64,000 nucleotides of DNA from Ilumatobacteraceae bacterium. Its GTDB lineage: Bacteria; Actinomycetota; Acidimicrobiia; Acidimicrobiales; Ilumatobacteraceae. The position numbers were made by a program, and so were the translations under genes. The notes beneath the pieces were generated by a model. It had not been told where the DNA came from. It was given only the letters and a program-made list of their open reading frames with translations, and did no database searches. Shown here one piece after another: positions 13,807-40,126 of the stretch; position 1 is the stretch's first letter, and each line of letters opens with the position of its first letter. The stretch lies in contig JAWPMO010000001.1 in NCBI GenBank assembly GCA_033344875.1, forward strand, positions 3,311,595 to 3,375,594, written 5' to 3'.

Positions 13807-13813
13807 CGGCCGC

Positions 13814-14764: not shown

Positions 14765-15873
14765 TGCTCACTCGGTCGGGTCTCGGAGCGGCCGTCGCCA
14801 CGATCGTGCTGATCGTCTGCGGGACGTGGTGGCGCTACGAGGAGCTCGTCGTCGTCGGGGCCGCGCTCGCGGTAGCGCTGGTGATCGCGCTCTGGAGCGC
14901 GCGTGCGACGCAGCGCGCCGACGTCGTTCGAATTGTCACGTCACCGAGAGTCGCCCGCGGCGATCCGGTCAGGGCCATCTATCGCGTCACCAACCCGGGT
15001 CGGCGCCGTCTGGCACCGATGACGATCGTCGACGAGTGCGATGAGCAGGTCGCGCGGGTTCCCATCGGTGAGATCGGGCCGCTCGACCGGACGGAGGCGG
15101 TCGGTCTGATCCCGACCCGCCGACGTGGGCTGTTCCCGATCGGCCCGTGGGCGATCGAGCGCACCGACCCGTTCCGCCTCGCCGTCGGCCGCCGCCAGAG
15201 CGACGCGACCGGTCAGATCATCGTGCACCCACGGATCTACCCGCTCGCCGGTCCCTACGGGGCCATGCACACGGTCGAGGACGAGGCGATCGTCCGTACG
15301 GCCGCCTCCGACCCGTTGAGCGGGTTCGTGTCGCTGCGCGAGTACGTCGACGGCGACGACCCCCGGCTCATCCACTGGCCGACCTCGGCGCGTATGGGCA
15401 CCCTGATGCTGCGCGAGCACGTCGAACTCCGTCGGCCCGAGTTCACGGTGGTCCTCGACGCGGTCGACACCGCGGCGACGGCCGACGACTTCGAAGAGAT
15501 GGCCGATGTCGCCGCATCGGTCTCGGTGCACGCACTCGGGAGCGGCGTGACGGTACGGCTCCGCACCACGTCCCGGGAGTTCCCCGGCGCCGCTCGGCCG
15601 ATCGATCGCGACACGCAGGTGCTCGATCTGCTGACGCCGGTCCGACAGTGCGACGACTCGGCGTCGCTCGCGTTGGCGGAGATCTTCCAGGGTGGACTCG
15701 ACCACTCGACGATCGTGTTCATCACCGGGCCGTCGGGGCCGTCGACGACGCTCCGCAACGCCGATCGTCTGTCGGTGGTCCGGATCGGCGCCGGGGCCGA
15801 GGCCGGCATCGGCATCACGATGGCGGCCGATGACGCGGTGACCTTCGTCCAACGGTGGCGCCCGTGGATGTGA
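14764..15873 (+). CDS. DUF58 domain protein
   Basis: 369 aa membrane protein. Two hydrophobic helices at the N-terminus (about residues 7-23 and 28-44), a beta-rich linker, then the DUF58 domain with the conserved DPLSGFVSLREYVDGDDPRL then IHWPTSARMG near residue 185-215; it adopts a von Willebrand A-like fold in the family. Start ATG 14764 overlaps the moxR stop (TGATG). The C-terminus overlaps the next gene by 19 bases. Typical middle gene of MoxR-DUF58-TgpA operons, role in envelope-protein maturation inferred. Confidence 0.88.
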   Translation: MLTRSGLGAAVATIVLIVCGTWWRYEELVVVGAALAVALVIALWSARATQRADVVRIVTSPRVARGDPVRAIYRVTNPGRRRLAPMTIVDECDEQVARVPIGEIGPLDRTEAVGLIPTRRRGLFPIGPWAIERTDPFRLAVGRRQSDATGQIIVHPRIYPLAGPYGAMHTVEDEAIVRTAASDPLSGFVSLREYVDGDDPRLIHWPTSARMGTLMLREHVELRRPEFTVVLDAVDTAATADDFEEMADVAASVSVHALGSGVTVRLRTTSREFPGAARPIDRDTQVLDLLTPVRQCDDSASLALAEIFQGGLDHSTIVFITGPSGPSTTLRNADRLSVVRIGAGAEAGIGITMAADDAVTFVQRWRPWM

Positions 15874-22754: not shown

Positions 22755-22798
22755 GGGGACTCCTCCCCATTCCCTGGGTCCGCCCGCTTCCTTACCGT
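22755..22798 (+). promoter_or_regulatory. operator/promoter P1 of the secretion locus (GGGGA-N4-TCCCC)
   Basis: GGGGA (22755-22759), CTCC, TCCCC (22764-22768), then 24 nt, then TACCGT (22793-22798). The layout is identical at 25865 and 34216. The inverted repeat ends right at the -35 region and probably binds a dimeric regulator. The first gene starts 49 nt further with an AAGGA ribosome site. Confidence 0.75.
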
Positions 22799-22846
22799 GA
22801 TCCGTGTCGACCGATCGGGGTCGACCCGACCCACAAAGGAACGATC

Positions 22847-23116
22847 ATGGCCAACTTCACGGGGATGGACATCCCCGCCGTTCGCACCCTCTCGAAGCAG
22901 CTCAAGAGCCGGGCCGATGAGATCCAGACCATCAGCCAGCAGCTGACGTCGCAGCTCGACTCCACTCCCTGGAACGGACCCGACCGGCAGCAGTTCCACG
23001 GCGAGTGGAACGGCCGCTACCGCCAGGCGCTCAACACCGTGGTCCAGGGGCTCGAGCAGGCGTCACAGACGGCGCAACGCAACGCCAACGAGCAAGAGCA
23101 GGCCTCGAGCCGCTGA
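22847..23116 (+). CDS. WXG100 family protein (ESAT-6-like)
   Basis: 89 aa, the classic size. Helix-turn-helix hairpin with the W-N-G turn at residues 42-44 (a second W-N-G at 54-56). It ends with RNANEQEQAS (78-87), a motif shared by the other three WXG proteins of the locus and a candidate secretion signal; no YxxxD/E motif is present. Such proteins are exported by FtsK/SpoIIIE-type ATPases as dimers. ATG 22847 follows AAAGGAACG. It is followed 12 bp later by a second WXG gene, so a heterodimer with that protein is likely. Confidence 0.9.
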   Translation: MANFTGMDIPAVRTLSKQLKSRADEIQTISQQLTSQLDSTPWNGPDRQQFHGEWNGRYRQALNTVVQGLEQASQTAQRNANEQEQASSR

Positions 23117-23128
23117 GGCTGATCCGTC

Positions 23129-23401
23129 ATGCCGATGTTCGGTGCCGACATCGCCGCCCTGCGCGGTCTCGCGTGGTCGCTGCGACGCAAGCGGCAGGAG
23201 ATCGACGAGAGCCGCCGGAGGTTGGCCGCGATCGTCGACAGCCTGCCGTGGACCGGCGTCGACCACGACCGGTTCGTCGACGAGTGGCGATGGGTGCACG
23301 GCCCGGCCCTGATGGCGATCGCCACCGAGTTGTCGCAGGCGTCGAGCCAGGCGACGTATCACGCCGACCGCCAGGAGCAGGCGTCGCGTCGTCGCGCCTG
23401 A
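23129..23401 (+). CDS. second WXG100-like protein
   Basis: 90 aa. W-T-G turn at residues 41-43, strongly basic first helix (SLRRKRQEIDESRRRLAAIV) and C-terminal YHADRQEQASRRRA, which shares the A-x-x-Q-x-Q-A-S motif with its neighbour. Size and tandem placement fit the second half of an EsxA/EsxB-type pair. It sits 12 bp behind the first WXG gene and 16 bp before the long WXG protein, all in one operon. Confidence 0.88.
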   Translation: MPMFGADIAALRGLAWSLRRKRQEIDESRRRLAAIVDSLPWTGVDHDRFVDEWRWVHGPALMAIATELSQASSQATYHADRQEQASRRRA

Positions 23402-23417
23402 CCGCACGAGGAACCCC

Positions 23418-24488
23418 ATGCCCGCCACCATGCCCGCCACCATGATCGGCGCCGACGCCGATGAACTGGAACGCATCGCCGGAACACTGCGCTCGGTTGC
23501 CGATGAGCTCGACAGCCATGCCGGGTCGGTCACGACGACCTTGAGATCGGTGGCGTGGGTCGGTGGTGTCGCCGCCCGGTTCGGGTCGAACTGGCACGGC
23601 GGTCACCGCCCTCGGATCGCAGCGACGGCGGAGTACGTACGCGACGCCGCGCGCCAACTCGACCGCAACGCCGCCGAGCAACGCCAGGCCAGCCGTGGCG
23701 GCGGTCAGGCCGGCGGACGAGGTGGCCCTGGGCCGACGATCGGCCCACCGGTACCGGACCCGGCAGGGTCCGGTGGCTCGTCGTCGTCGATCGGCGACGC
23801 GCCCGGCAATCCGACCCTCGATCGGATCGGCGACTTGCTCACGACGTTCGGTGCCGGCCGCGATGCCGTCGAAGCACTGGCGGAGCACGCTCACCTCCTC
23901 GAAGGTGCCGGCGTCGACCGGTTGCTCGACATCCTGACCGACGACGACTTCGTGGCGTTGCTCGCCGGACTCGACAAGGTGCTCGAGGTCGGCGACGTGG
24001 TCGTCGATCTCGTCAGCGACTTCGTCGAACACCCGACCCTGCCGTTCGACGAACGGATCGTGCACGCCCTCGCCGACGCGGCGACGCTGTTCGGCATCGA
24101 TCAGGGCGTCGAGTACGCCGCGAACTTCCTCGCCCAGGCGGCCACGACGGCACTGCTCCCCGGGCTGGGTGCCGCGCTCGCGCCCTTCGCCGGACAGGCG
24201 GCCGGGGCGATCGCCGACGCCGTGATCGGCGAGATCGTCGACGCGGTCGACGGCGCGACCGACGTCGTCGACATCGCCGCCGACGGGGCCGTCGACGCGT
24301 ATCGGGCGTTCAAGGAGGCGTTCGGGCTGGTCCTCGATGCGGCGGGCGCCGTCATCGACGTCGCCGGCGACGCGGTCGACCTCGCCGGTGATGTGGCGGG
24401 CGCCGTCGTGGATGCCGGCGGCACGGTGATCGGCGCCGGAGCCGACGCGGTCGGCGGCGTCGTCGGATCACTCAACCCCTTCGACTAG
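23418..24488 (+). CDS. long WXG-headed protein, candidate type VII substrate
   Basis: 356 aa. Residues 1-95 form a WXG-like hairpin (W-V-G at 47-49) ending RNAAEQRQAS (83-92), the same tail motif as in the small WXG proteins. A Gly-rich linker follows (about 94-125), then a long Ala/Val/Asp-rich region with hydrophobic stretches (about 245-262 and 300-350) such as AGAVIDVAGDAVDLAGDVAG, repeated with GDxVD/GxxVDxAG periodicity. This looks like an LXG/PPE-like substrate or a membrane-inserting protein. No toxin domain is recognised and no immunity gene is evident. Start ATG 23418; the repeated MPATMPATM offers a second ATG at 23430. Confidence 0.75.
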   Translation: MPATMPATMIGADADELERIAGTLRSVADELDSHAGSVTTTLRSVAWVGGVAARFGSNWHGGHRPRIAATAEYVRDAARQLDRNAAEQRQASRGGGQAGGRGGPGPTIGPPVPDPAGSGGSSSSIGDAPGNPTLDRIGDLLTTFGAGRDAVEALAEHAHLLEGAGVDRLLDILTDDDFVALLAGLDKVLEVGDVVVDLVSDFVEHPTLPFDERIVHALADAATLFGIDQGVEYAANFLAQAATTALLPGLGAALAPFAGQAAGAIADAVIGEIVDAVDGATDVVDIAADGAVDAYRAFKEAFGLVLDAAGAVIDVAGDAVDLAGDVAGAVVDAGGTVIGAGADAVGGVVGSLNPFD

Positions 24489-24500
24489 GCAGGACACCGT

Positions 24501-25094
24501 ATGGACACCACCCACCCGGCGGCCACGTTCACGGCCACCCGTCACGAACTGCTCGGCGCCGAGCCCCTGCTCGCCGCTGCCGAGATCGCACGGGGTGTCT
24601 GTCGATCCGCCGATCGGACGGTCAGCGTGTTGGCGATCACGCCGACGAGGATGCGCCGGATCGACGGCTGGCTCGGCGCGGTCGGGTTCGTCACCCACGC
24701 TGCGGCGCCCGATCCGGGGCGGCCACTTCTCGGTTCGGTGTGCGATCGCGCCGAGGCCCCAGCGCTGCTGCGCCGGATCCTCGAGTCGCTCGTCGGTGCG
24801 GTTCCCGACCACGCGGCCGACGCGCCGATCGAGCTACCGGCGCTGACCGGGTTCGCCCCGGTCTCGGTCCCCGACGGCGTCGTCTGGGTCGTCGTGGTGT
24901 CCGCGACATCGATCCACGACGACCCGGAACACGTGATGTTCGCCGATTTCGACGGCTTGCTCGTGGGCGATGTGACGGCGTTCGATCGTCCGGTCCGTCT
25001 CGAACCCGTCGACGTCGACCGCGTCGACAGCCGGCTGGCCGAGCTCGCGGGCGCCTCGCCGCGGTCGGTGCGCGACCTCCTGCTCGACGACTGA
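24501..25094 (+). CDS. unknown protein of the secretion locus
   Basis: 197 aa, alpha/beta composition with no signal peptide or membrane helix. No family recognised. It contains a stretch SVPDGVVWVVVVSATSIHDD (about 128-147) that looks like a central beta-strand pair and ends in an acidic tail SVRDLLLDD. The gene lies 12 bp after the long WXG protein with AGGCAGGA before ATG 24501. Its position between substrates and machinery would suit a chaperone of the EspG type, but no sequence evidence for that is seen. Confidence 0.7.
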   Translation: MDTTHPAATFTATRHELLGAEPLLAAAEIARGVCRSADRTVSVLAITPTRMRRIDGWLGAVGFVTHAAAPDPGRPLLGSVCDRAEAPALLRRILESLVGAVPDHAADAPIELPALTGFAPVSVPDGVVWVVVVSATSIHDDPEHVMFADFDGLLVGDVTAFDRPVRLEPVDVDRVDSRLAELAGASPRSVRDLLLDD

Positions 25095-25122
25095 CCGCGG
25101 CCACCCCACCGCGCGGTGCTGC

Positions 25123-25128
25123 CAGACT
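25123..25128 (+). promoter_or_regulatory. possible -10 box for gene 25135
   Basis: CAGACT, 6 nt before ATG 25135; deviates from TANNNT at the first base, and no ribosome site is present. Confidence 0.3.
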
Positions 25129-25134
25129 GGACGG

Positions 25135-25833
25135 ATGCAACCGACTCCACCGCCGAGCGGTGAACGATGGAACGTGAACATGCCGGCCGTGATCGGTGTG
25201 GTGTTCGTGTTCCTGGTCGGTGTCGTGATCTGGGTGATCGCATCCTCCGACGGCGACGGCGACGGCGACGATGCTGCGCCCGTCGACGATCCGGCCACGT
25301 CGGGTGTCGTCACGAGCGACCAGCCGGCCACCTCCGATGGCGGGCCCACCTCCTCCACGACAGCGCCCACCACGTCACCCACCCCGCTGCCGAACACGAG
25401 CGTGGCGCCGAGCACCGCACCGACGACGGCACCCCCGACCACCCCGACCACCGCACCGCCCGTCACCGCCGCCCCCGGTGCCGGCGACGACGCGGTGCCC
25501 GGCGATCTCGGCATCCCGGGACGCGCCATGTTGCGCCCATCGTGCGACGACAGCTTCATCACCGTGCTCGCCTCGCCGATCGGTAGTCAGGCGACGGCAG
25601 ACGGCGTGGCGGCGGTGCTCGACCGATATCCCGGCTCGAGCTATCTCCGGACCGACCAGACGTGTCCGTCCCTGACCCAGTCGTCGGACGGCCAGCCGAT
25701 CTACGTGATCTTCCTCGGGCCCTTCGCGTTCGACACCGATGCGTGCGCCGCCCGCGCCGAGGGCCCCGACGGTGCGTACGCCCGCCGGCTGAGCGACGAC
25801 GTCGGCCCCGACCACACCGTCAACTGCGCCTGA
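25135..25833 (+). CDS. membrane-anchored protein with Thr/Pro-rich stalk and Cys-rich domain
   Basis: 232 aa. Short cytoplasmic N-terminus, one membrane helix (about residues 16-37, MPAVIGVVFVFLVGVVIWVI), an acidic then Thr/Pro-rich stalk (38-120) and a compact C-terminal domain with four Cys (SCDDSF, TCPSL, DACAAR, NCA), probably two disulfides. The domain reads ITVLASPIGS ... IYVIFLGPFAFDTDACAARA, which is SPOR-like in pattern and resembles sensor regions found at the end of some actinobacterial Ser/Thr kinases. It may sense the wall or assist the secretion complex; inference only. Confidence 0.7.
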   Translation: MQPTPPPSGERWNVNMPAVIGVVFVFLVGVVIWVIASSDGDGDGDDAAPVDDPATSGVVTSDQPATSDGGPTSSTTAPTTSPTPLPNTSVAPSTAPTTAPPTTPTTAPPVTAAPGAGDDAVPGDLGIPGRAMLRPSCDDSFITVLASPIGSQATADGVAAVLDRYPGSSYLRTDQTCPSLTQSSDGQPIYVIFLGPFAFDTDACAARAEGPDGAYARRLSDDVGPDHTVNCA

Positions 25834-25864
25834 ACGGCATCACCTGCTGACGCATCCAGCGGGT

Positions 25865-25908
25865 GGGGAGTTCTCCCCATGTCGCTCCGGGCCGCCGCTC
25901 GCGACGAT
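25865..25908 (+). promoter_or_regulatory. operator/promoter P2 of the secretion locus
   Basis: GGGGA (25865-25869), GTTC, TCCCC (25874-25878), 24 nt, then GACGAT (25903-25908) as a weak -10. The ATG of the phosphatase gene is 6 nt further, so this transcript is leaderless. Same spacing as P1 and P3. Confidence 0.7.
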
Positions 25909-25914
25909 GGGCCC

Positions 25915-26640
25915 ATGGAATCGATCGCCGTCACGGCCGCCACCACGGTGCACGCAGGTGCCTGCAGCGCCGTCGGGCGAGACCGCGACGCGGACGTCGT
26001 CGTGTGCGGGCCGACCTGGTTCGCGATCGCCGACGGGGTGGGCGGCCACGACGACGGTGACGTCGCCGGACGGGTCGTCGCCGACGCGCTCGCATCGGAG
26101 GCCGCGCCGCGTTCGCTCGACGACGTGGCGGCATCGATCGGGCGAGTGGACGACGCCGTTCGCTCGGCCGCTCGGCGCAACGGTGACGTCGCCATGGGCG
26201 CCACGCTCGTCGCAGCCGTGCCCCTTGCGGGTGGCATGGCGGTCGCGCACGTGGGCGACGCGCGCTGCTACAGGTTGACCGGCGGCGCGCTCACCCTGCT
26301 GACCCACGACCACTCGTACGTGCAGGAACTCGTCGATCTCGGCCGGTTGACGCCGGACGAGGCCCGCCATCACCGCCTCCGGCACCTCGTCACGCGCGCC
26401 CTCGGCGTCGACGGAGCGGCGCAGCCAGAGGTCGCGTTCGTCCCCCATGCCGTCGGACGCCTCCTGCTGTGTACCGACGGGCTGGCGAGCACCGTCTCCC
26501 CGCGCTCCATCGGCCGGGTCCTGTCGGGGATCGACGATCCGCGAGCCGCCGCCGATCGGCTCGTCGCCCTGTCGACACGAGCCGGCTCGGTCGACAGCGT
26601 CACGGCACTCGTCGTCGACGACCGAGGCGAGCGGTCGTGA
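25915..26640 (+). CDS. PP2C-family Ser/Thr protein phosphatase
   Basis: 241 aa, a bare PP2C domain. Metal-binding motifs: DGVGGH at 40-45 after FAIA, then VAHVGDARCYRL, LLTHDHSYVQELVDLG, LCTDGLAS and the final DSVTALVVDD. Removes phosphate from Ser/Thr; the kinase at the end of the same operon is the obvious counterpart. Start ATG 25915 is preferred to the in-frame ATG 25879, because the latter lies between the operator and the -10 box. Overlaps the FHA gene by four bases (GTGA). Confidence 0.9.
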   Translation: MESIAVTAATTVHAGACSAVGRDRDADVVVCGPTWFAIADGVGGHDDGDVAGRVVADALASEAAPRSLDDVAASIGRVDDAVRSAARRNGDVAMGATLVAAVPLAGGMAVAHVGDARCYRLTGGALTLLTHDHSYVQELVDLGRLTPDEARHHRLRHLVTRALGVDGAAQPEVAFVPHAVGRLLLCTDGLASTVSPRSIGRVLSGIDDPRAAADRLVALSTRAGSVDSVTALVVDDRGERS

Positions 26641-27491
26641 CCGACACTCGCTTCGCTCCGGGCCCGGCGACGGCCTACGTCACCAGCTGCGTGCTCGCGC
26701 TGAGCCGCGCCCCGGGCATCGACGACGAGTTGATGCAGCGGTGCTCCACGGCGACCGAGTGGGAGGACCTGGCCGACGTCGCCCGTGAGCGTCACGTCAC
26801 CGCGCTGGTGATGCACGACGCCGACCGGTTGCGGCTGGCGGTCGGCGGTGACGCCTCGATCGTCGTCGAGACGCCCGACGGCGACCGGCGCTTCGACGGC
26901 AACGCCAGCTGGACGCTCGACACGGTCGACGACGCCCGCTTCGTCACGCTCACCGCCACCCGTGATCAGGGCGACGGCGCGATCTATCGAACCGACGGTG
27001 GCGTCGTGCCGGCCTCGCGGGTGTCGCGCCGGCTGGCCGCCGCCGCGATCGCACCGACCGATCCGTTCGAGCTGCTGTTCGGCCACACGGTCGCACGGTC
27101 GGTCGAGTCGGCCGCAGTTCGACCGTCGGTCGACGAACGCGAGCGACACACCGCACTCGCGGTGCTGGTGTTCTCCACCGGCCAACGGGTCGTCGTCGAC
27201 CGCACGATCGTGATCGGTCGCAACCCGGGTCCGCTCGACGCGTCGGCGCACACGGCGCGACCCCGTCTGGTGAAGCTCCCGCAGGCGGGCGTGTCACGCC
27301 GCCATGCTGCGGTGCGTCTCGACCGTTGGACGGCGACCATCGAAGACCTCGGGTCGGCCAACGGCACGACGGTGACATCGCCCGGTCGGACCGCCGTCGA
27401 CCTCCGGCCGGGTCACCCGTTCGAACTCGCCGTCGGCGCGGTCGTCGACCTGGGTGGCGACGTGTCGTTCGCCGTGGAGGAGGCCGCATGA
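26637..27491 (+). CDS. FHA-domain protein
   Basis: 284 aa. The C-terminal 95 residues form a forkhead-associated phosphothreonine-binding domain: TIVIGRNPG, VSRRHAAVRLD, and DLGSANGTTV contain the conserved GR, SxxH and NG residues. The N-terminal part (1-180) has an uncharacterised beta-rich domain with RLAVGGDASIVVETPDGDRR, similar in style to N-terminal regions of FHA proteins in type VI/VII-like clusters. GTG 26637 overlaps the phosphatase stop. It is expected to dock kinase-phosphorylated partners such as the EssC-like ATPase; inference. Confidence 0.85.
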   Translation: MTDTRFAPGPATAYVTSCVLALSRAPGIDDELMQRCSTATEWEDLADVARERHVTALVMHDADRLRLAVGGDASIVVETPDGDRRFDGNASWTLDTVDDARFVTLTATRDQGDGAIYRTDGGVVPASRVSRRLAAAAIAPTDPFELLFGHTVARSVESAAVRPSVDERERHTALAVLVFSTGQRVVVDRTIVIGRNPGPLDASAHTARPRLVKLPQAGVSRRHAAVRLDRWTATIEDLGSANGTTVTSPGRTAVDLRPGHPFELAVGAVVDLGGDVSFAVEEAA

Positions 27492-28312
27492 CACAGTTGC
27501 TCGAACGACACCGGACGCGGGGCCTCCGGCGGGGAGACGAGGAGACATCGATGAGCACGACGGGCGACCGGCGACCGGAAATCCACTTCTGCGGCGAGGT
27601 CGCCGTGGTCGGCCACGAACCGTTCACGATCGGGCGCGACGCCGACTTCGTGATCGACGACGACAACCGGTTCCTGCACCGCCAGTTCCTGGGCCTGTCC
27701 ACAGCGCAGGGAGTGTGGCTCCTCGCCAACGTCGGCTCGCAGCTGACCGCCACCGTCTCCGACCCCGAAGGGCGGCTCGAGGCATTCGTGTCGCCTGGTG
27801 CGGTGCTTCCGCTCGTGTTCGACCGGACACTGGTCCGGTTCACCGCCGGTCCCACCTCGTACGAGTTCTCGATTGTGCTGTCCGAGCCGGCATTCGTCGC
27901 GAGCCAGATCGACGAGAACGACACCGGCGACACGACGGTCGGACGCACGGTGATGACCCCCGACCAGCTGCGGCTGATCCTGGCGCTGGCCGAACCGGCC
28001 CTGCTCGGGCAGGCGCGGGGTGGCACGGCGATGCCGTCGTCGGGCGAAGCGGCACAGCGACTCGGCTGGACCACGACGAAGTTCAACCGCAAGCTCGACA
28101 ACGTCTGCCAGAAGCTGGCGGCGCAGGGTGTGCGGGGACTCCACGGGGAGCCCGGCCGGTTGGCGTCGAATCGCCGTGCCCGGCTGGTCGAGTACTCGCT
28201 CGCCGTCCGCCTGGTGACCCGCGACGACCTCGCGCTGATCTCGGCGGCATCCCTCGGTCTCGACGGTGTCGATGACGTCGATGAGGGTGACGACGGCATC
28301 GCCGGGGACTGA
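27488..28312 (+). CDS. FHA-like protein with C-terminal winged helix-turn-helix
   Basis: 274 aa. Residues about 35-140 resemble an FHA fold (FTIGRDADFVIDDDNRFLHR then QFLGL) but the canonical S-x-x-H is FLHRQF and the NG loop is weak. Residues about 155-250 are a helix-turn-helix of winged type: MTPDQLRLILALAEP, then SGEAAQRLGWTTTKFNRKL with DNVCQKL as recognition region. It is the only obvious DNA-binding protein of the locus, so it is the best candidate for binding the GGGGA-N4-TCCCC operators under control of phosphorylation. ATG 27488 overlaps the previous stop; ATG 27551 is an alternative start. Confidence 0.8.
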   Translation: MTQLLERHRTRGLRRGDEETSMSTTGDRRPEIHFCGEVAVVGHEPFTIGRDADFVIDDDNRFLHRQFLGLSTAQGVWLLANVGSQLTATVSDPEGRLEAFVSPGAVLPLVFDRTLVRFTAGPTSYEFSIVLSEPAFVASQIDENDTGDTTVGRTVMTPDQLRLILALAEPALLGQARGGTAMPSSGEAAQRLGWTTTKFNRKLDNVCQKLAAQGVRGLHGEPGRLASNRRARLVEYSLAVRLVTRDDLALISAASLGLDGVDDVDEGDDGIAGD

Positions 28313-28318
28313 CCCGAC

Positions 28319-31300
28319 GTGCAGCTGAAGCTCCGTCTGCTGTCCGACGGGCGCGCCGACGACGTCGTCGTCGATGTGGCCCCGCACACGACCGTCGGAG
28401 CGTTGGCGGTCGCCCTCTTCCCCGAGGCGGTCCCGTCCGGCATGTCGGCGACCGAGCTCGGTCTCGTCGTCGACGTCGACCGTCCGGGTCGTCGCGTGGT
28501 GGCACCCGACGCGACGATCGACGGCTCGGGCATCCGGTCGGGCAGTTCGATCGGTCCCAGCACCGCCCGGCTCGCGAGCGCGCCCACCGGCCCCGCTGCG
28601 ACTTTGACCGTGCACGACGGCCCGGACGCCCCGGCGACGTTCCCGTTGCCCGTCGGTCGGACGTCGGTCGGCCGGGGCGACGACCGAGACCTGCGTTTCA
28701 CCGATCGGCTGATGAGCAAACGGCACGCGCACGTCGTCGTCGGCGACGTCGTCGAGATCATCGACGATGCATCGGCCAACGGTGTCCTGTTGAACGGCCG
28801 CCCGGTCGATCGGGCGGTGCTGCACACCGGCGACCGGTTGACGTTGGGTGGTACGACGATCTCGGTGGCGCACCGGGCCCGGCGCGGTGGGCACACGTCG
28901 GTCCATGCCAACGACGTGCCGTTCAACCGGTCGCCACGGCTCGATCCGCGGTACGAGGGCATCACGCTGCTCGCTCCCGAACCGCCGCAACCACCGGCGC
29001 CTCAGCGGTTCCCGGTGGCGATGGTGATCGCCCCGGTCGGGCTCGCCGTCGCCCTCTACCTGTTCACGCAGAACATCCTGTCGATCCTGTTCTTCGCACT
29101 CAGCCCCGTGCTGATCGTCGGCAGCTGGTTCGAGACCCGCTCGGCCAACCGCAAGCAGATCGCGACCGAGACGGCTCGCTTCCGCAGCTCACTCGCCGAC
29201 CTCGCGGATCAGCTCGAGTACGCACAGCGACTCGAACGGAGCGGCCGACGGCACGAGCACCCGAGCGTCGTCGAACTGATCGAGGCGGTCGAGGACCGGG
29301 GGCCGCTGGTCTGGACACGCCGCCCCGAGCACGACTCCTTCGGCCGGATCCGTCTCGGACTGGGGACCCAGCCATCGCGCAATGCGGTCGAGCTTCCCGC
29401 GTCCAACAAGACGCTGCCGGGCCTGTGGCGGGAGCTGACCGACACCGTCGCACGCTTCGTCGACGTCGCCGGCGTGCCGGTCGTCGCCGACCTGCGAGCG
29501 TGCGGCAACGTCGGTGTCGGCGGACCGGGCATCGCCGCAGAGCCGGTGCTCCGCGGCCTGCTCGCACAGTGCGTCGCCCTGCATTCCCCCGCCGAGTTCG
29601 AGCTCGCCGCGTTCGCTCCGGGCGACGGCTGGGACTGGCTGAAGTGGCTGCCACACACGTCCGGTTCGCGGCTGGCCGGCGACGCCGCCGAGGCGGCGAC
29701 GCTCGCCACGTGGGTCGAGTCGCTCCTCGACGACCGGCTCGCGGCCTGCCCGGCCGACGACGCGTCTCCGCCGCTGCCGCTCGTGCTCGTCGTCGCCCAC
29801 GACGACGCCCCGATCGCACGATCGCGTCTGGTCCAGATCGCCGAGCGTGGGCCGGCGGCCGGCGTACATGTCGTCTGGTTCGCGGCCGATGTCGAACGTC
29901 TGCCGGCGGCGTGCCGGACGTTCGTCGACATCGACGCCAACACGGGTCGCGGCCGGGCCGGGTTCGTCCAGGGTGGCGTGTCGGTGACGGACCTCGCGGT
30001 CGAGCCGGCCGGTGATGCGGCCACCACACGCCTCGCCAGGACCCTCTCGCCGATGATCGACAGCGGGGCGCCGATCGACACGTCGTCCGACCTGCCGCGA
30101 TCGGTCGCCTTCGTCGATCTCGCCGGACACGAGATCGCGTCGGCGCCCGACGCGGTGGCCGATCGGTGGCGTGAGAACGAGTCGGTGTCCGGTGCGCCCC
30201 CGCCTGGTGGGCGCGATCGCGGGTTGCGAGCACTGGTCGGCCGAACGGTCGACGGGCCGCTCCACCTCGACCTGCGCACGCAGGGGCCACACGCGCTCGT
30301 CGGTGGCACGACCGGATCGGGCAAGAGCGAGTTCCTCCAGAGCTGGATCCTCGGGATGGCGACCGACAACAGCCCGTCGCGTGTCACGTTCCTGCTGGTC
30401 GACTACAAGGGCGGGGCGGCGTTCGCCGACTGTGTCGAACTGCCGCACTGCGTCGGTCTGGTCACCGACCTCAGCCCTCACTTGGTGCGCCGCGCGCTCG
30501 CGTCGCTCGACGCCGAACTGCGGCATCGAGAACAGCTGCTGCACGACAAACGAGCCAAGGACCTCCTCGAACTCGAGCGTCGCAACGACCCCGACTGCCC
30601 ACCGAGCCTCGTGATCGTCGTCGACGAGTTCGCCGCACTCGTCTCCGAGGTGCCCGAGTTCGTCGACGGCGTGGTCAACATCGCCCAACGCGGGCGTTCG
30701 CTCGGGTTGCATCTCGTGCTCGCGACGCAGCGACCGGCCGGCGTCATCAAGGACAACCTGCGAGCCAACACCAACCTGCGCATCGCGCTGCGAATGGCCG
30801 ACGAGGGCGACTCCGACGACGTGATCGGGACCACCCGGGCGGCCCTGTTCGACCCGGATGTGCCCGGACGGGCGATCGTCAAGGCCGGTCCGGGCCGCGT
30901 GACCGGGTTCCAGGCCGCGTACTCGGGCGGCCGCCACGCCGGGCGGACCGCCCCCACGCCGATCGAGGTCGCATCGCTGCGGTTCGGCGTCGGCACACCG
31001 CGACCCGTCGCCGCTGCTCCGCGCGAGGACAGCGCCGTAGGAGGCGAGGGTCCGACCGACATCGAGCGCATCGTCCACACCATCGGCGTGGCGACCTCGC
31101 ACCTCGGGATCGGCCGTCCACGGCGCCCGTGGCTGCCCGAGCTCGCCGATCGGTACTGTCTCGAAGCGCTGCCGACCGATCGCACCGACACTGCGCTCGT
31201 GTTCGGCGTCGCCGACGACCCCGGGTCGCAACAGCAGCCGGTGGTGGCGTTCCACCCGGACGTCGACGGCAACATGGCGATCTTCGGTACGGGCGGCACC

Positions 31301-32656
31301 GGCAAGTCCGGAGCGCTGCGTGCGATCGGCGTCGCCGCCGGGTTCGGTGCAGCACGCGGGGGTCCGACATGGGTCCACGGACTCGACTTCGGTTCGCGGG
31401 GGCTCCAACCGCTGAGTCGGCTGCCACACGTGGGCAGCGTGATCCCGGGCGACGACGGTGAGCGAGTCCAGCGACTCCTCCGTCGGCTGGAGTCGATGAT
31501 GGACGAACGCAGCGATCGCTACGCGCGGGCGGAGGCGACGACGATCACCGAGTTCCGGCGTCGCAGCGGCCACGCCACCGAGCCCCGTGTGCTGGTCCTC
31601 GTCGACGGGGTCGGCGCGTTCCGGACCGAATACGAGGGCGGTCTGCTGACGCGGTGGTGGGAGCTGTTCCTGCGGATCGTCGCCGAGGGCCGTGCCTTGG
31701 GGATCCACGTCGTGATGTCGGCCGACCGTCCGTCGTCGGTGCCGTCGAACCTCGCGTCGGCGGTCCAGCGAGAACTCGTCCTGCGCCTCGCCGGCGAGAT
31801 GGACTACGCGATGGTCGACGTGCCGGTCGACGCCTACGGGCCGGGTACCCCCGCCGGCCGCGGGTTCCTCGACGGTCGCGAGGTGCAGGTCGCCGTGGTC
31901 GGCGGCTCCGGCGACCTTGCCGAACAGGGTGTGGCGATGCAGCGTTGTGCGGTGGTGATGGAACGCAACGGCGTCACACCGGCACCGCCCGTCGGGTCGC
32001 TTCCCGCGCGAGTCGTGCTGTCCGAACTGCCCACCGACGCTCGCCGCCCGACGATCGGCATCGGCGATGACACGCTCGGCGCGATCGGGTTCGTGCCGGA
32101 GGGTGTGTTCCTCGTCGCCGGTGCACCGCAGAGCGGGACGAGCACCGCGGCGGCGACGATGATTCGGAGTCTCGCGGCCGTTCGGTCCGACACCGACTTC
32201 GTGCTGTTCGGTCGGCGTCGATCGCCGCTCACGACGGTCACGACCTGGGCTGCGGCGGCGCACGGTCCCGTCGAGAACGACCGGCTGGCGTCCAAGCTCG
32301 CCGGTCGGCTCGGAGAGGCGGCGGGCAGGTCGATCGTCGTCGTGATCGAGGCAGTCGGCGAACTGCTCGACACCGAGGCCGACATGCCGTTGCAGGAGCT
32401 GCTTCGCGTCTGCCGCGACCAGGGGATCTTCGTCATCGCCGAGGGTGAGACCAGCAGCCTGACCGGTTCGTGGCCGTTGCTCCAGGCGGTGAAGTCGTAT
32501 CGATGTGGCATCGTGTTGCAGCCGGACCAGATGGACGGCGACACGCTGTTCAAGACGCCGTTCCCGAGGACGACCCGTCCCGAGTTCCCCGCCGGGCGCG
32601 GCCTGATGGTGCAAGGTGGCCAGGTGACCAAGGTGCAGGTGGCGGTGCCCGAATGA
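28319..32656 (+). CDS. EssC/EccC-like FtsK-SpoIIIE secretion ATPase with fused FHA domain
   Basis: 1445 aa, the motor of a type VII-like system. Order: a ubiquitin-like N-terminal region (1-80), an FHA domain (about 94-185: SVGRGDDRDLRF, MSKRHAHVV, SANGVLLNG), two membrane helices (about 233-270) and three FtsK/SpoIIIE modules. Module 1 has Walker A GGTTGSGKS (K669) and Walker B VIVVDEFAALV; module 2 has GTGGTGKS (K996) and a Walker-B-like VLVLVDGVGAF lacking Glu; module 3 has GAPQSGTS, in which the Walker A Lys is Thr1274. The FHA-TM-TM-3xFtsK order is that of Firmicutes EssC rather than mycobacterial EccC. GTG 28319 start, 7 bp after the previous stop. Confidence 0.92.
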   Translation: MQLKLRLLSDGRADDVVVDVAPHTTVGALAVALFPEAVPSGMSATELGLVVDVDRPGRRVVAPDATIDGSGIRSGSSIGPSTARLASAPTGPAATLTVHDGPDAPATFPLPVGRTSVGRGDDRDLRFTDRLMSKRHAHVVVGDVVEIIDDASANGVLLNGRPVDRAVLHTGDRLTLGGTTISVAHRARRGGHTSVHANDVPFNRSPRLDPRYEGITLLAPEPPQPPAPQRFPVAMVIAPVGLAVALYLFTQNILSILFFALSPVLIVGSWFETRSANRKQIATETARFRSSLADLADQLEYAQRLERSGRRHEHPSVVELIEAVEDRGPLVWTRRPEHDSFGRIRLGLGTQPSRNAVELPASNKTLPGLWRELTDTVARFVDVAGVPVVADLRACGNVGVGGPGIAAEPVLRGLLAQCVALHSPAEFELAAFAPGDGWDWLKWLPHTSGSRLAGDAAEAATLATWVESLLDDRLAACPADDASPPLPLVLVVAHDDAPIARSRLVQIAERGPAAGVHVVWFAADVERLPAACRTFVDIDANTGRGRAGFVQGGVSVTDLAVEPAGDAATTRLARTLSPMIDSGAPIDTSSDLPRSVAFVDLAGHEIASAPDAVADRWRENESVSGAPPPGGRDRGLRALVGRTVDGPLHLDLRTQGPHALVGGTTGSGKSEFLQSWILGMATDNSPSRVTFLLVDYKGGAAFADCVELPHCVGLVTDLSPHLVRRALASLDAELRHREQLLHDKRAKDLLELERRNDPDCPPSLVIVVDEFAALVSEVPEFVDGVVNIAQRGRSLGLHLVLATQRPAGVIKDNLRANTNLRIALRMADEGDSDDVIGTTRAALFDPDVPGRAIVKAGPGRVTGFQAAYSGGRHAGRTAPTPIEVASLRFGVGTPRPVAAAPREDSAVGGEGPTDIERIVHTIGVATSHLGIGRPRRPWLPELADRYCLEALPTDRTDTALVFGVADDPGSQQQPVVAFHPDVDGNMAIFGTGGTGKSGALRAIGVAAGFGAARGGPTWVHGLDFGSRGLQPLSRLPHVGSVIPGDDGERVQRLLRRLESMMDERSDRYARAEATTITEFRRRSGHATEPRVLVLVDGVGAFRTEYEGGLLTRWWELFLRIVAEGRALGIHVVMSADRPSSVPSNLASAVQRELVLRLAGEMDYAMVDVPVDAYGPGTPAGRGFLDGREVQVAVVGGSGDLAEQGVAMQRCAVVMERNGVTPAPPVGSLPARVVLSELPTDARRPTIGIGDDTLGAIGFVPEGVFLVAGAPQSGTSTAAATMIRSLAAVRSDTDFVLFGRRRSPLTTVTTWAAAAHGPVENDRLASKLAGRLGEAAGRSIVVVIEAVGELLDTEADMPLQELLRVCRDQGIFVIAEGETSSLTGSWPLLQAVKSYRCGIVLQPDQMDGDTLFKTPFPRTTRPEFPAGRGLMVQGGQVTKVQVAVPE

Positions 32657-34188
32657 TCTCGATCGACGGCTACACCGACATCGAGCGGATCGGGCGTGGC
32701 GGACTCGGCGACGTGTACCGGGCCGTCCGGACCTCGACCGGCGGCACGGTGGCGATCAAGGTGCTCCGCGACGTGTCCGACGAGTCGGTCGCATGGCATC
32801 GCACCCGCCGCGAGCTGACGGCGCTCGTGTCGCTCGCCGGACACGCCAACGTGATCCAGCTGCTCGAGGTGCTCGACCTGCCGGAGGGGCCGGTGCTGGT
32901 GATGGAGTACGCGCCCGGTGGTTCGGTCGCCGACCTGATGCTCCGCCGTGACCGCCCGCTCAGCGTCGGCGAGACGGTGCTGGTCGGACGCCAGACCGCC
33001 ACCGCGCTGGTCGCGGCTCACGAACGCGGCATCGTGCATCGCGACGTCAAGCCGCAGAACCTGCTGATCGATGCCTACGGCCAGGTCAAACTCTGTGACT
33101 TCGGCATCGCGGCGATGGCCCGTTCGGAGGAGTTCCAGTCGCGTACGAGTGCGATCTCGATGCGGTACGCCAGTCCGGAAGATCTCGACGACGACATCGA
33201 CGTGGGTCCTCCTTCCGACGTGTACTCGCTCGGCGCGACGATGCTGCATCTCGCCCGCGGGGCGCCGCCGACGCTGAAGGAGCGGCTCGCGCCGTGGATG
33301 CCGCCCGCGACCGACGACGAGGAGTTGGCGGCGCTCGACGCGATCGTCGCGTCGTGTCTGCAGCCCCAACCCGGAGCGCGGCCGTCGGCGTCGGAGGTCG
33401 CCGACGAACTCGAACGGCTCGGCTGGTCGATCGACGAACGCAACCGGGCGATCGCGTTCGAGTCGGTCGATCTCGACGTCGACCTCGACGACGCACCCAC
33501 CGATCCGCGCACCGGCCGCCCGTCGTCGCCCGACGAATCCGTCGGACGGGACGACGGCGGCTCGGGCACCGACGACGCGCCGACCGTGCCGCGCGCCTCG
33601 GCGTCGCCGGAGCCGTTCGACCGCGACCGTGATCCGGGCGCGCACGACGACACGGTGTATCGACCCGACCGCCTGCCGGCGCGACCGGCGCCGACACCGA
33701 CACGGCGACGCCGTCCGTTCGTGATCGGCGCGCTCCTGGTCGTCGCGGCGGTCGCGCTCGTCGTCCTGTGGCCGAACGGGGACGGCGTGGGCGTGACGTT
33801 CGTCGAACGTCCGGCCGGGCTCACCGACGTCCGAGCCCTCGACTGGCCGTTCGGCGATGTCGGTGAGTGCCTGGTGCAGCGCGACGAGAGGCTCGACCCG
33901 GTCGGTTGCGACGCGCCACACGATCTCCAGCGGATCGCCGTCGGCACGCTCGACGCCGCAGCCGACGCCGCGTTCGACCAGGCGGCGGTGCGAGCGGAGG
34001 TCGGTGCCGCGTGCGAAGCCGCATTCCTCACCTTCGTGGGTGCGTCGCCCGCCGACAGCGACCTCGACGCACCCTTCACGGCGCCGTCCGCCGCGAGCTG
34101 GACGCAGGACGGCGACCGGCGGTTCCAGTGTCTCGTCGGTGCCGCCGATCGTCGGATCGTCGGCGATGCCGAGGGCGCCGGCCGCTGA
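32653..34188 (+). CDS. transmembrane Ser/Thr protein kinase (PknB-like) with septum-formation-type outer domain
   Basis: 511 aa. Kinase domain 7-260: Gly loop IGRGGLGDVYRAV, K36, E54, HRDVKPQN with D131, DFG D149, APE-like MRYASPED. An acidic juxtamembrane region (about 275-350) is followed by one membrane helix (about 356-376) and an outer domain with GECLVQRDERLDPVGCDAPH, which matches the pattern of Septum_form-type domains (G-x-C ... V-x-C-x-x-P-H). ATG 32653 overlaps the ATPase stop (ATGA). Likely phosphorylates the FHA partners in this operon; the phosphatase at 25915 would reverse it. Confidence 0.92.
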   Translation: MISIDGYTDIERIGRGGLGDVYRAVRTSTGGTVAIKVLRDVSDESVAWHRTRRELTALVSLAGHANVIQLLEVLDLPEGPVLVMEYAPGGSVADLMLRRDRPLSVGETVLVGRQTATALVAAHERGIVHRDVKPQNLLIDAYGQVKLCDFGIAAMARSEEFQSRTSAISMRYASPEDLDDDIDVGPPSDVYSLGATMLHLARGAPPTLKERLAPWMPPATDDEELAALDAIVASCLQPQPGARPSASEVADELERLGWSIDERNRAIAFESVDLDVDLDDAPTDPRTGRPSSPDESVGRDDGGSGTDDAPTVPRASASPEPFDRDRDPGAHDDTVYRPDRLPARPAPTPTRRRRPFVIGALLVVAAVALVVLWPNGDGVGVTFVERPAGLTDVRALDWPFGDVGECLVQRDERLDPVGCDAPHDLQRIAVGTLDAAADAAFDQAAVRAEVGAACEAAFLTFVGASPADSDLDAPFTAPSAASWTQDGDRRFQCLVGAADRRIVGDAEGAGR

Positions 34189-34215
34189 CTCGACGCTCGC
34201 CCATCGCCCGCTGCC

Positions 34216-34259
34216 GGGGAGTCGTCCCCATTCCTTGACGTCGCCCGGTTCCGTACCGT
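34216..34259 (+). promoter_or_regulatory. operator/promoter P3 of the secretion locus
   Basis: GGGGA (34216-34220), GTCG, TCCCC (34225-34229), 24 nt, TACCGT (34254-34259). Both the flanks (CCCCATTCC) and the -10 match P1. The hydrolase start is 44 nt further with AGGAGGAGG. Confidence 0.75.
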
Positions 34260-34303: not shown

Positions 34304-35539
34304 ATGGGAGGCGATCTGGTCGGCGCCGATGCCGACGTGCTCACGACCACCGCCCGCCGCTTCGGTCGATGCTCGGTGCTGCTCGAACAACACCGGGCGC
34401 ATCTGACGTCGCTGTACGTCGGCGCCGGGTGGGTGGGCGACGACGCCGAGCGCAACCGTCGCGAGTGGACGGCGGTCGGCGCACCAGCATTGCTGCAGAC
34501 GAGCGAGTTTCTCGCCGAGATCGAGGCCCGGCTCCTCAGGCACGCCGACGAGCAACGACGTGCGAGCGCCGCGACCGCCACGCCGACGGCCGGACCGGTC
34601 GGCTTCGGCGGCGGCTGGATCGACGACCTGCTCGACGACTGGTTCGGAGGCGACGACCGACCGGCGGTCCCCACGGTGCCGCCCGTCGGCGAACCGGGCG
34701 CGATCGTCGGCTTGCGCCCGAGCGGGTTCGACGCACCGTCGGACGGGCGGGGCGCGGTGCTCGCCGCGATGGAGGGTTTGGCCGACGAGAGCCGGATCGG
34801 ACGCGACGAGATCGAGATCCGCGCCCTCGACAACGGCCGCTACGTCGTCGTGCTGCCCGGGGTCACCGACCTCTCCGCCGGGATCGACCAGTTCGTCGAC
34901 CGGGTGCGGGACGACCCGTTCGGCGTCGGGGATGCCGGCCGGGACGCGATCGACACGTGGGCCGACAGCGACGCACCGACCGTGCGCAAGATGCGATACG
35001 CGTACGAAGCGGCCGTGCGCGACGACACGACGGTCAACGAGTACTCGGTCGTGACGATCGCGGCACTCGAGGCCGCCGGCGTGCCGGCAGGCGCCGAGGT
35101 CATGATCATCGGGCACAGCTTCGGCGCGTACACGGCGATGGATCTCGCGGCCGACCCGGCATTCAACGCCGCGCACGGCCTCGACCCGCTCGGCTACCAC
35201 GTGCAGGTCACGCACGTGGTCGCCGTGGGCGCCGAGACCGACTGGCGGTTCGACGAGGTACCCGCCGATACCGACACGCTGGTGCTGAACAACCGCTTCG
35301 ATCTCGTCTACCGCACCGAAGACCTGCTGCACCGCGACGGCGACGCCGAGCATCCCGGTCACCTCGAACAGAACTTCTGGGGAGGATGGCGGGGCAGCGG
35401 CCACGACGAGCACAACTACATCGACTGGCTCGCCGACACGGGGAACAACGGGGTCGAGGACTGGCTGGACGGCGCCGGTGCGAGGTACACGGCGGGCGGC
35501 ACGAGGGTGAGCGCCCAGGTGCCCGACCCGAACCTGTGA
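34304..35539 (+). CDS. WXG-headed alpha/beta hydrolase, probable secreted effector
   Basis: 411 aa. Residues 1-90 are a WXG hairpin (W-V-G at 43-45) ending RHADEQRRAS (79-88), the tail motif shared with the other WXG proteins. After a Gly/Pro linker comes an alpha/beta-hydrolase domain (about 130-390) with nucleophile elbow GHSFG (S272), candidate acid D333 in NNRFDLVYR and candidate His H367 or H370 in GSGHDEHNYIDWL. The fold and motif suit a lipase or esterase. Strong ribosome site AGGAGGAGG at 34291-34299. The long open frame upstream of 34304 is inside the kinase gene. It has its own P3 promoter, so it can be expressed with the locus or alone. Confidence 0.85.
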   Translation: MGGDLVGADADVLTTTARRFGRCSVLLEQHRAHLTSLYVGAGWVGDDAERNRREWTAVGAPALLQTSEFLAEIEARLLRHADEQRRASAATATPTAGPVGFGGGWIDDLLDDWFGGDDRPAVPTVPPVGEPGAIVGLRPSGFDAPSDGRGAVLAAMEGLADESRIGRDEIEIRALDNGRYVVVLPGVTDLSAGIDQFVDRVRDDPFGVGDAGRDAIDTWADSDAPTVRKMRYAYEAAVRDDTTVNEYSVVTIAALEAAGVPAGAEVMIIGHSFGAYTAMDLAADPAFNAAHGLDPLGYHVQVTHVVAVGAETDWRFDEVPADTDTLVLNNRFDLVYRTEDLLHRDGDAEHPGHLEQNFWGGWRGSGHDEHNYIDWLADTGNNGVEDWLDGAGARYTAGGTRVSAQVPDPNL

Positions 35540-38715: not shown

Positions 38716-40126
38716 AGGACTGTCAGATCCGCGGTGTAACTGGTCTGGCCTGAAACGCTGAACCGACATGGTTCGGCCGGAAGGACAGACAATGACAGAC
38801 CATGATGTGACGGTGGCGACACCGTCGAACGAGACGAACGAGGAGCGGCCGGACAGGTCACTCGCGGAGCAGCTCGTCGACCAAGCACGAGCGGACGGGG
38901 TTGACCTGGTCGGCCCCGGCGGCCTGTTGTCGGATCTCACCAAGCAGGTCCTCGAGACCGGGTTGGAGGTCGAGATGGAAGACCATCTCGGCTACCCGAA
39001 ACACGCAGCCGAGGGCCGCAACCACGGCAACTCACGCAACGGCTCGAGAGCCAAGACGGTGATCACCGAGGTCGGCCCAGTCGACATCGACGTGCCGCGT
39101 GATCGTGACGGCAGTTTCGAACCCAAGACGGTCCGCAAGAACCAACGCCGGCTCGACGGTGTCGACTCGATGGTGATCTCGTTGACGGCGAAGGGGTTGA
39201 CGACTGGTGAGATCGAGGCCCACCTGGCCGAGGTGTACTCGACGAACATCTCCCGCGAGACGATCTCGAAGATCACCGACCGGGTCCTCGACGACCTCGG
39301 CGACTGGTTGAACCGGCCGCTCGACCGCGTGTTTCCGGTGATCTTCATCGATGCGATCGTGGTGAAGATCCGCGACGGCCAAGTCGCGAACCGACCCGTC
39401 TACACCGCCATTGGGGTCACCGTGGACGGCAAACGCGAGATCCTCGGGCTCTGGATTGGTTCAGGCGGCGAAGGCGCCAAGTATTGGTTGCAGGTGTTGA
39501 CCGAGATCAAGAACCGTGGCGTCGACGACGCCTGCATCGTCGTCTGCGACGGCCTCAAAGGCCTGCCGGAATCGATCGAAGCGACGTGGCCGCTGGCAGT
39601 GATCCAAACCTGCGTGCTGCACCTGATCCGCAACACCTTCCGCCTCGCGAGCCGGGCCGACTGGGACAAGATGGCCCGCGATCTCCGCCCGATCTACACC
39701 GCCGTCAACGAAGCCGACGCGGCAGCCCGACTCGATGAGTTCCACACGATCTGGGGCAACCGCTACCCGGCGATCCGGTCGCTGTGGACGAACGCCTGGG
39801 CCGAGTTCGTGCCGTTCTTGGACTACTCACCCGAGATCCGCCGGGTCATCTACTCGACCAACGCCATCGAGTCCTTGAACGCCAGATTCCGCCGGGCGAC
39901 GAGAGCGAGGGGACACTTCCCCAACGAGCAAGCAGCGCTGAAATGCCTCTACCTCGTCGTCAGATCACTCGACCCGAAAGGCACCGGCCAGGAACGATGG
40001 ATGAACCGCTGGAAGCCCGCCCTCAACGCCTTCGCCATCACCTTCGAAGGCCGCCTCTTCTGAGGCCCTAACATCACCAATGACAATGACCAGCCAGACC
40101 AGTTACACCAACTTCCTGACAGACCC
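38716..40126 (+). mobile_element. complete IS256-family insertion sequence with 8-bp target duplication
   Basis: 1411 bp. Ends are imperfect inverted repeats (38716-38749 and 40093-40126) sharing CTGTCAG and GGTGTAACTGGTCTGGC. The 8 bases GTCGCGTG occur directly outside both ends (38708-38715 and 40127-40134), the target duplication size expected for IS256. One transposase gene fills the element. Intact ends and gene suggest recent insertion, upstream of the MarR efflux operon. Confidence 0.9.
38768..40063 (+). CDS. IS256-family transposase
   Basis: 431 aa, a full-length DDE Mutator-type transposase. Conserved blocks: MEDHLGYPKHAAEGRNHGNS, the RDRDGSFEP block, FIDAIVVKIRDG with the first catalytic Asp, VVCDGLKGLPESI with the second, and YSTNAIESLNARFRRAT with the catalytic Glu. 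ATG 38768 follows a weak ribosome site; a second ATG (MTDHDV, 38792) follows AAGGACAGAC. No frameshift. Confidence 0.93.
   Translation: MVRPEGQTMTDHDVTVATPSNETNEERPDRSLAEQLVDQARADGVDLVGPGGLLSDLTKQVLETGLEVEMEDHLGYPKHAAEGRNHGNSRNGSRAKTVITEVGPVDIDVPRDRDGSFEPKTVRKNQRRLDGVDSMVISLTAKGLTTGEIEAHLAEVYSTNISRETISKITDRVLDDLGDWLNRPLDRVFPVIFIDAIVVKIRDGQVANRPVYTAIGVTVDGKREILGLWIGSGGEGAKYWLQVLTEIKNRGVDDACIVVCDGLKGLPESIEATWPLAVIQTCVLHLIRNTFRLASRADWDKMARDLRPIYTAVNEADAAARLDEFHTIWGNRYPAIRSLWTNAWAEFVPFLDYSPEIRRVIYSTNAIESLNARFRRATRARGHFPNEQAALKCLYLVVRSLDPKGTGQERWMNRWKPALNAFAITFEGRLF

Follow-up and report, generated by a model that had tools for sequence, protein, structure and literature searches.

The window analysed here, a 64,000-nucleotide (nt) stretch of the 4,968,626-base genome of an Ilumatobacteraceae bacterium, carries on its forward strand a locus that encodes an EccC/EssC-type ATPase together with a WXG100 protein (Pfam matches FtsK_SpoIIIE and WXG100), i.e., the two components by which type VII secretion is recognized. 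Three copies of the dyad GGGGA-N4-TCCCC, each followed at a fixed distance by a -10 box, precede different parts of this locus, and the original prediction, made from the sequence alone, had read them as sites of a dimeric regulator in the -35 region. Behind the first putative operator lies the WXG100 gene (22847..23116; Pfam WXG100, 4e-8), followed on the same strand by a second small WXG-like gene (23129-23401), a WXG-like gene of 356 amino acids (aa; 23418-24488) and genes for products of 197 aa (24501-25094) and 232 aa (25135-25833), the latter with a Thr-rich stretch. These four genes are supported by their reading frames, GC content by codon position and tblastn relatives in the related genome G007, and no product of 23129..25833 has a Pfam match above cut-off. 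The second putative operator precedes an operon, again on the forward strand, that starts with a PP2C phosphatase gene (25915..26640; PP2C_2, 1.8e-9) and continues with FHA1, whose product has a C-terminal FHA domain (26637..27491; FHA, 5.3e-9). Next follow the gene for FHA-HTH, an FHA protein with a helix-turn-helix (HTH) domain that we propose as the operator-binding regulator based on predicted folds and co-occurrence with the motif (27551..28312), the secretion ATPase with an N-terminal FHA domain (28319..32656; FtsK_SpoIIIE, 1.1e-52; FHA, 1.9e-10; matches to the NCBIfam EssC/EccC models lie below their cut-offs) and a Ser/Thr protein kinase (32653..34188; Pkinase, 5e-46). The third precedes a gene for a likely substrate (34304..35539, forward strand), which is supported by its frame and codon-position GC and named WXG-hydrolase after the original prediction and by eye from the sequence; its product has no Pfam match.

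All three dyads are exact and lie on the forward strand, and the distance from TCCCC to the -10 box is 24 nt at every copy, so that the predicted observation stands and is stronger than first described. Operator 1 (GGGGACTCCTCCCCAT, 22755..22770) is followed by the box TACCGT (22793..22798), with a transcription start predicted at ca. 22805 from leaderless promoters of like kind. For operator 2 (GGGGAGTTCTCCCCAT, 25865..25880) and its box GACGAT (25903..25908), the predicted 5' end of the mRNA coincides with the start codon at 25915. Operator 3 (GGGGAGTCGTCCCCAT, 34216..34231) is followed by TACCGT (34254..34259) and, by the same reasoning, a probable start at ca. 34266. A mechanical list of open reading frames begins the PP2C frame at 25879, at an ATG formed by the AT of operator 2 and the next G, and the ATG at 25915, 7 nt past the -10 box as in relatives, is probably the real start. 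Dinucleotide shuffles of the window contain on average 0.11 dyads with a maximum of 1, and none of 100 shuffles reaches the 4 that are present. The fourth exact copy, at 39909, qualifies the earlier impression that the window holds no further site, and it is probably a chance copy because it continues with AA instead of AT and lacks a -10 box at the 24-nt distance. It lies within a Mutator-family transposase gene (38768-40063) directly behind the secretion locus.

The AT behind the downstream arm is part of the element, which in full is directional and reads GGGGA[G/C]TNNTCCCCAT-N22-TACGGT. Across the source genome the plain dyad occurs at 8 places, a count that is not decisive because expectations differ between ca. 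8.5 (scaled from the window shuffles) and 1 (a single 5-Mb third-order Markov sequence). With AT there are 4 matches, all in forward and none in reverse orientation, and the reversed-pattern control yields 0. They comprise the three sites of the window and one at 4927681, 1.6 Mb away, where a promoter of equal geometry (GGGGAGTTCTCCCCAT-N22-GATGGT) precedes a lipoprotein-like gene; the remaining four plain dyads lack AT on either strand. One plain dyad (L001, G000:C1:651998) falls in the terminal part of what is, judged by eye, a likely 5S rRNA gene. Allowing one mismatch gives 15 matches on both strands (control 2), among which no clear additional promoter was seen where flanks were read, i.e., for some of them only.

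A genome scan for the motif had been set beforehand as a check, and extended to the genus its outcome is not that of a randomly distributed sequence: GGGGAN4TCCCCAT has 52 hits distributed over 10 of 10 genomes of the genus (Ilumatobacter relatives), with a reversed control of 0 in each. These hits represent 50 places, two of which are counted on both strands. The centre of the dyad had been described as variable, and it does differ between copies, but it is not free, as all 52 hits have G or C at position 6 and 39 have T at position 7. Downstream of the dyad, the -10 box is the only clear column signal (A in 40/52, T in 41/52). After removal of duplicate sequence windows, NANNNT lies exactly 24 nt away in 39 of the 52 hits, and TANNNT at this distance is found in 23, compared to an average of 0.60 per position. 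The -35 region of these 39 promoters is degenerate, with a best TTGACA match (spacers 15-19) of 2-3/6 in 30 promoters, 4 in 8 and 5 in a single one. In 21/39, an ATG or GTG that opens a frame of at least 100 aa stands at offset 50/51, i.e., 6-7 nt past the -10 box, as expected of leaderless-type starts, relative to which the dyad is centred at ca. -43.5. Four loci (L047, L049, L073, L078) have ATC where a leaderless start would lie or close to it, and this codon was dropped as a start because L073 and L078 have an in-frame GTG or ATG just downstream.

The genes behind the genus hits encode type VII secretion proteins, likely substrates and lipoproteins as well as the PP2C/kinase operon that includes FHA-HTH. 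Clustering the first frames by BLAST at 1e-4 (several frames are miscalled, and low-complexity linkers may join lipoproteins) groups 12 Thr-rich lipoproteins, 9 WXG or WXG-hydrolase relatives, 7 PP2C genes, 5 WXG-like genes of the MTLIRVNPES type, 3 FHA/FtsK relatives and 3 frames behind or beside small MPTASEYR-type genes, with 13 singletons. The Thr-rich lipoproteins (L082 and 11 other genus loci) are thus the largest first-gene group behind the motif. When ten products of genes behind sites were searched against Pfam, one matched WXG100 (below cut-off) and the other matches were all weak. WXG-hydrolase relatives also lie behind sites in L047, L049, L069, L078 and L080, and sites in L045, L056, L057, L068 and L081 have an EccC-type gene (32-34% identity) as neighbour; the stretches read of L048, L054, L060 and L076 revealed no relative of EccC.

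Conservation upstream of orthologous genes bears out the predicted placement of the sites before the WXG genes, the PP2C-to-kinase operon and the WXG-hydrolase. In G007, where the orthologous loci are split over two contigs (L070, L071/L118) and encode proteins of 42-78% identity, a site followed by a -10 box 24 nt away stands before each of the orthologues of WXG1, PP2C and the WXG-hydrolase (in this reading, two-mismatch sites were listed on condition that GGGG and the -10 box were unchanged). Seven aligned regions upstream of PP2C operons (from the window, G002, G003, G004, G005, G007 and G008) share 19 invariant columns, 13 of them in the dyad plus AT, 4 in the -10 box and the last two being the TG of the start codon, and operator 2 lies in this footprint. 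FHA-HTH is encoded in the same stretch as PP2C in 6 of these 7 operons and on a separate contig in G007.

The association reaches beyond the genus. A scan of named genomes recovered 71 FHA-HTH loci, mostly 50-60% identical and many from Intrasporangiaceae (Knoellia, Janibacter, Terrabacter, Phycicoccus), which together contain 63 dyads versus 1 for the reversed control. Setting aside five Ilumatobacteraceae loci (L144-L148) leaves 66 loci with 64 strand-specific hits of the AT form, of which 25 have TANNNT at 24 nt and 19 at 25 nt, compared to 0.92 per position; the 24-nt hits lean toward the fuller palindrome ATGGGGAGTNCTCCCCAT. Loci were considered testable unless they had less than 6 kb upstream, an FHA-HTH identity below 44% or a hit shorter than 150 aa. 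Of the 53 that remained, 39 have the AT form in the 9 kb upstream of FHA-HTH and on the strand of this gene (control 0), and 43 have any dyad. Relatives of the kinase (61), FHA1 (57), PP2C (53) and EccC (12) are encoded within the 66 loci. Some of the sites precede WXG genes behind EccC (L185, L200, L203), while others precede genes for VanY, NlpC/P60 or Ig/fn3 proteins. Four hits without AT have TACNNT at 34 nt, i.e., about one helical turn further. Dyads without AT also stand just behind the FHA-HTH gene in L160, L162, L169, L172 and L212, where a -10-like box follows after 33-35 nt, and perhaps represent a second promoter class located one helical turn further upstream.

Among 121 genomes of the family, the motif occurs in 21 and FHA-HTH in 14, with 12 having both; in a phylum sample of 296 genomes these numbers are 72, 12 and 10. 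FHA-HTH is present in 7 of the 9 phylum genomes with at least four hits, the two others being G225 and G214. In G214, 8 of 9 hits are AATTTT/AAAATT copies on one contig; this contig (C7) carries GGGGAAAATTCCCCAT or its reverse at four places without FHA-HTH, perhaps a repeat or the site of another factor. Of eight sampled members of genus g13, the four with FHA-HTH are the same four that have the motif, and in one of them (G021) a dyad lies directly upstream of the FHA-HTH gene. EccC relatives are present in 18 of 21 genomes tested, including G019, which has neither FHA-HTH nor the motif.

What kind of protein is FHA-HTH? It has no Pfam match, sequence searches of Pfam, NCBIfam and PDB gave no name for the HTH domain, and neither the window protein nor any of the 29 members of alignment A2 (window plus 28 loci) matches the GerE profile of Pfam at E up to 1, so that it cannot be filed as a LuxR/NarL (GerE) member by sequence. 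At five loci it is 66-73% identical where PP2C is only 44-50% identical. An AlphaFold model based on alignment A1 (window plus 36 of the 71 loci, 37 sequences) predicts an N-terminal FHA fold with the FHA domain of EmbR as best match (Z 11.9, root-mean-square deviation (rmsd) 2.0 over 94 residues). The usual phosphothreonine-binding motif of FHA domains includes the serine of SxxH; G29, R30, H44 and N61 are invariant in all 37 sequences, and this serine is absent. For the C-terminal part, modelled alone from 29 sequences (pLDDT 81), the 50 matches listed by VIA-align are LuxR/NarL/GerE-type domains, judged by their names, with Z from 9.2 to 6.6, where values below 8 may reflect just a common arrangement. 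DegU is best (Z 9.2, rmsd 1.8 over 67 residues), and LasR, LiaR, VraR, TraR, GerE and DosR are also among the matches. A profile comparison with hhalign showed a weak preference for 17 GerE domains (29.8%, E 5.6e-4) over 15 Trans_reg_C domains (1.4%), and an OmpR-type winged helix was set aside on this worse match. The original prediction had named an FHA protein with a winged HTH as candidate regulator; its co-occurrence with the motif and its predicted DNA-binding domain support that choice, but the modelled fold seems closer to LuxR/NarL domains than to a plain winged helix. Sites near -42 are common among LuxR-type activators, and a LuxR/NarL-like fold fits a dyad centred near -43. In a qualitative comparison, the recognition-helix segment T[KR]FNRKLDNVC is found in most loci with the typical motif, while it reads KKFEKKIDNVC in G034 and G051 and departs from the pattern in several relatives that are 27-40% identical; exceptions are G021 (TKYNRKLDNVC), G057 and G406, which have altered helices yet some sites.

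Taken together, we consider it likely that the three elements are operators of one FHA-HTH-type activator that serves a genus-wide regulon and is tuned by phosphorylation. Site, spacing, conservation and co-occurrence come directly from calculation, and the reversed control of 0, the conservation at orthologues and the fixed spacing support the predicted dimeric regulator at the -35 region; FHA-HTH is most likely the binding factor, and activation would be the sign of control. A dimer would bind the near-palindrome (AT)GGGGAGTNCTCCCCAT, centred ca. 43.5 base pairs upstream of the transcription start, where it would abut the degenerate -35 region with the -10 box 24-25 nt further on. A site that abuts the -35 region, a fixed distance to the -10 box and a poor -35 are the layout of class II promoters, and we think of a class II activator because of this fixed spacing and poor -35. 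FHA-HTH would control its own operon, since it is encoded inside the operon under operator 2, together with WXG, EccC-type and substrate genes, and its FHA domain would probably read threonine phosphorylation set by the kinase of the operon and removed by PP2C. The dyad with its -10 box thus looks like the on-switch of the secretion system because three genes share site and spacing and distant relatives carry the site beside FHA-HTH. A wider version, to which we give somewhat less than an even chance, is that FHA-HTH is a LuxR/NarL-type domain with FHA in place of the receiver, set by the Ser/Thr kinase and PP2C phosphatase of the same operon, and that this switch controls both type VII secretion with its substrates and, among other Actinomycetes, surface proteins of the Ig/fn3 type and wall hydrolases via one operator kept between Acidimicrobiia and Actinomycetes.

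Several observations weigh against this interpretation. There is no -10 box at 24 nt in 13/52 genus hits, and in genus g13 only G021 and G070 have hits with one. In the stretches read, no site was found near FHA-HTH in two genomes of the genus (G006 and G009; L141 and L140), where the gene follows a relative of the one at 25135 and no PP2C relative was found, nor in G070 and G102, where it lies beside a PP2C/FHA1/kinase module; outside the genus, 10 of the 53 testable loci have no dyad upstream. FHA-HTH occurs without the AT form in G034 and G051 (family) and in G250 and G400 (phylum). Of these, G051 carries a small WXG-like gene preceded by a site with one mismatch and TACGGT 24 nt away, a WXG gene of G250 has an upstream dyad that lacks AT, and no dyad was found within 20 kb in G400. 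Conversely, the motif occurs without FHA-HTH in 9/121 genomes of the family (G001, which is 74% complete, G022, G050, G058, G060, G068, G072, G073 and G105) and 62/296 of the phylum, mostly with one or two hits, and in G072 (96% complete) a WXG gene is preceded by a full promoter. Fisher tests of co-occurrence give 1.9e-9 (family), 1.1e-3 (family without the genus) and 1.9e-5 (phylum), values that ignore shared ancestry, and co-occurrence does not single out FHA-HTH because PP2C, kinase and FHA1 co-occur as well. Foldseek with the HTH domain returned LysR mixed with VraR/LiaR, none at E 0.001 or better.

The promoter of G072 would fit a reading in which the operators are real but bound by another factor, with FHA-HTH as a passenger of the module. 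Candidates are at hand in the 17 proteins with GerE matches in the genome, and LuxR-type factors bind similar palindromes elsewhere (PMC9774167, from the portion available). We nevertheless consider this unlikely, as the motif follows FHA-HTH and its operon into Intrasporangiaceae and in genera of the family, and the helix described above is kept together with the typical motif and changed in several relatives that lack it, if only qualitatively. Somewhat less probable still is that FHA-HTH is a repressor that covers the -35 region, with phosphorylation lifting the repression. The dyad does abut this region, and the FHA-HTH factor EspM represses whiB6 according to the accessible part of its description (PMC7002343), yet repression does not require a constant distance to the -10 box, whereas the spacing peaks at 24 nt in the genus and at 24-25 nt outside it, and 30 of 39 promoters have a poor -35 match.

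The two remaining alternatives concern the dyad itself. GGGGA-N4-TCCCC could form a hairpin with a 5-base-pair stem and a 4-nt loop and act as an attenuator or terminator, but there is no T-run behind it, and its location upstream of the -10 box, ca. 50 nt before leaderless starts, means that the controlled mRNA would not contain it; we therefore reject a role as RNA as highly improbable. That the three palindromes arose by chance is least probable of all: the plain 14-mer is not in clear genome-wide excess by the scaled shuffle figure, but the genus control (52 hits versus 0 reversed), the sharp spacing peak and the PP2C-operon footprint over seven genomes speak against it. An activator of the FHA-HTH type thus accounts best for the elements.

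Among known systems, EspM, the factor of Mycobacterium ESX-1 with FHA and C-terminal HTH parts, resembles FHA-HTH in its N-terminal FHA domain, its C-terminal HTH, its role as a type VII regulator and its gene beside the locus, and oligomerisation through FHA has been suggested; the M. marinum protein exceeds FHA-HTH in length (halves 1-133 and 127-363) and is described as a whiB6 repressor, and the accessible part of the account gives no palindrome (PMC7002343). The FHA-HTH profile found a match in 1 of 8 genomes of one other family. The PAS-LuxR regulators such as PimM have a LuxR-type HTH, and the palindrome that they bind in the -35 region is GGGA-WW-TCCC. Their consensus CTVGGGAWWTCCCBAG differs in having 2 bases between GGGA and TCCC versus 4 here, and they carry a PAS rather than an FHA domain and target antibiotic clusters (PMC9774167, in the part available). 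The response regulators of the NarL/LuxR type (DegU, LiaR, VraR, DosR) resemble FHA-HTH in its predicted HTH fold, and its dyad near -43 matches the position used by many LuxR-type activators, but they have a receiver where it has FHA, and FHA-HTH lacks the GerE match. The 14-mer GGGGAGTTCTCCCC is not reported in the literature searched, from which most subscription papers are absent, and we claim novelty to that extent.

The secretion system itself resembles the subtypes T7SSd and T7SSe, which have an ATPase with an N-terminal FHA domain, a WXG100 protein and a kinase. T7SSe also shares the phosphatase and a separate FHA protein, unlike T7SSd with its five core parts and no phosphatase, and the portion of the account at hand mentions neither an FHA-HTH factor nor a shared promoter for either (PMC11217815). 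The FHA-HTH loci of other Actinomycetes adjoin Ig/fn3 proteins, a likeness to the bifidobacterial PFNA operon, which comprises genes for a kinase, an fn3 protein, an AAA ATPase, DUF58, a transglutaminase, a phosphatase and a terminal fha for which the available text mentions no DNA-binding role (PMC8430577). Genes of the same kinds, i.e., for a MoxR-type ATPase, DUF58 and a transglutaminase, also lie at 13748-17993 of the window, upstream of the secretion locus, and this stretch contains no exact dyad.

To our knowledge, little is known about how type VII secretion is switched on outside mycobacteria and Bacillota. The probable regulator-operator pair described here is discernible at the sequence level in two classes of bacteria and thereby defines a testable regulon, and genes behind GGGGA[G/C]TNNTCCCCAT-N22-TANNNT in genomes with FHA-HTH are candidate type VII substrates. 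If our interpretation is true, the kinase and phosphatase of such loci would act on transcription in addition to any effect that they have on the secretion machine. Distant relatives of FHA-HTH (27-38% identical) are encoded in L119, L123, L142, L143, L133 and L242, several of them beside kinase genes and with the motif not nearby, and are possibly parallel switches with other operators.

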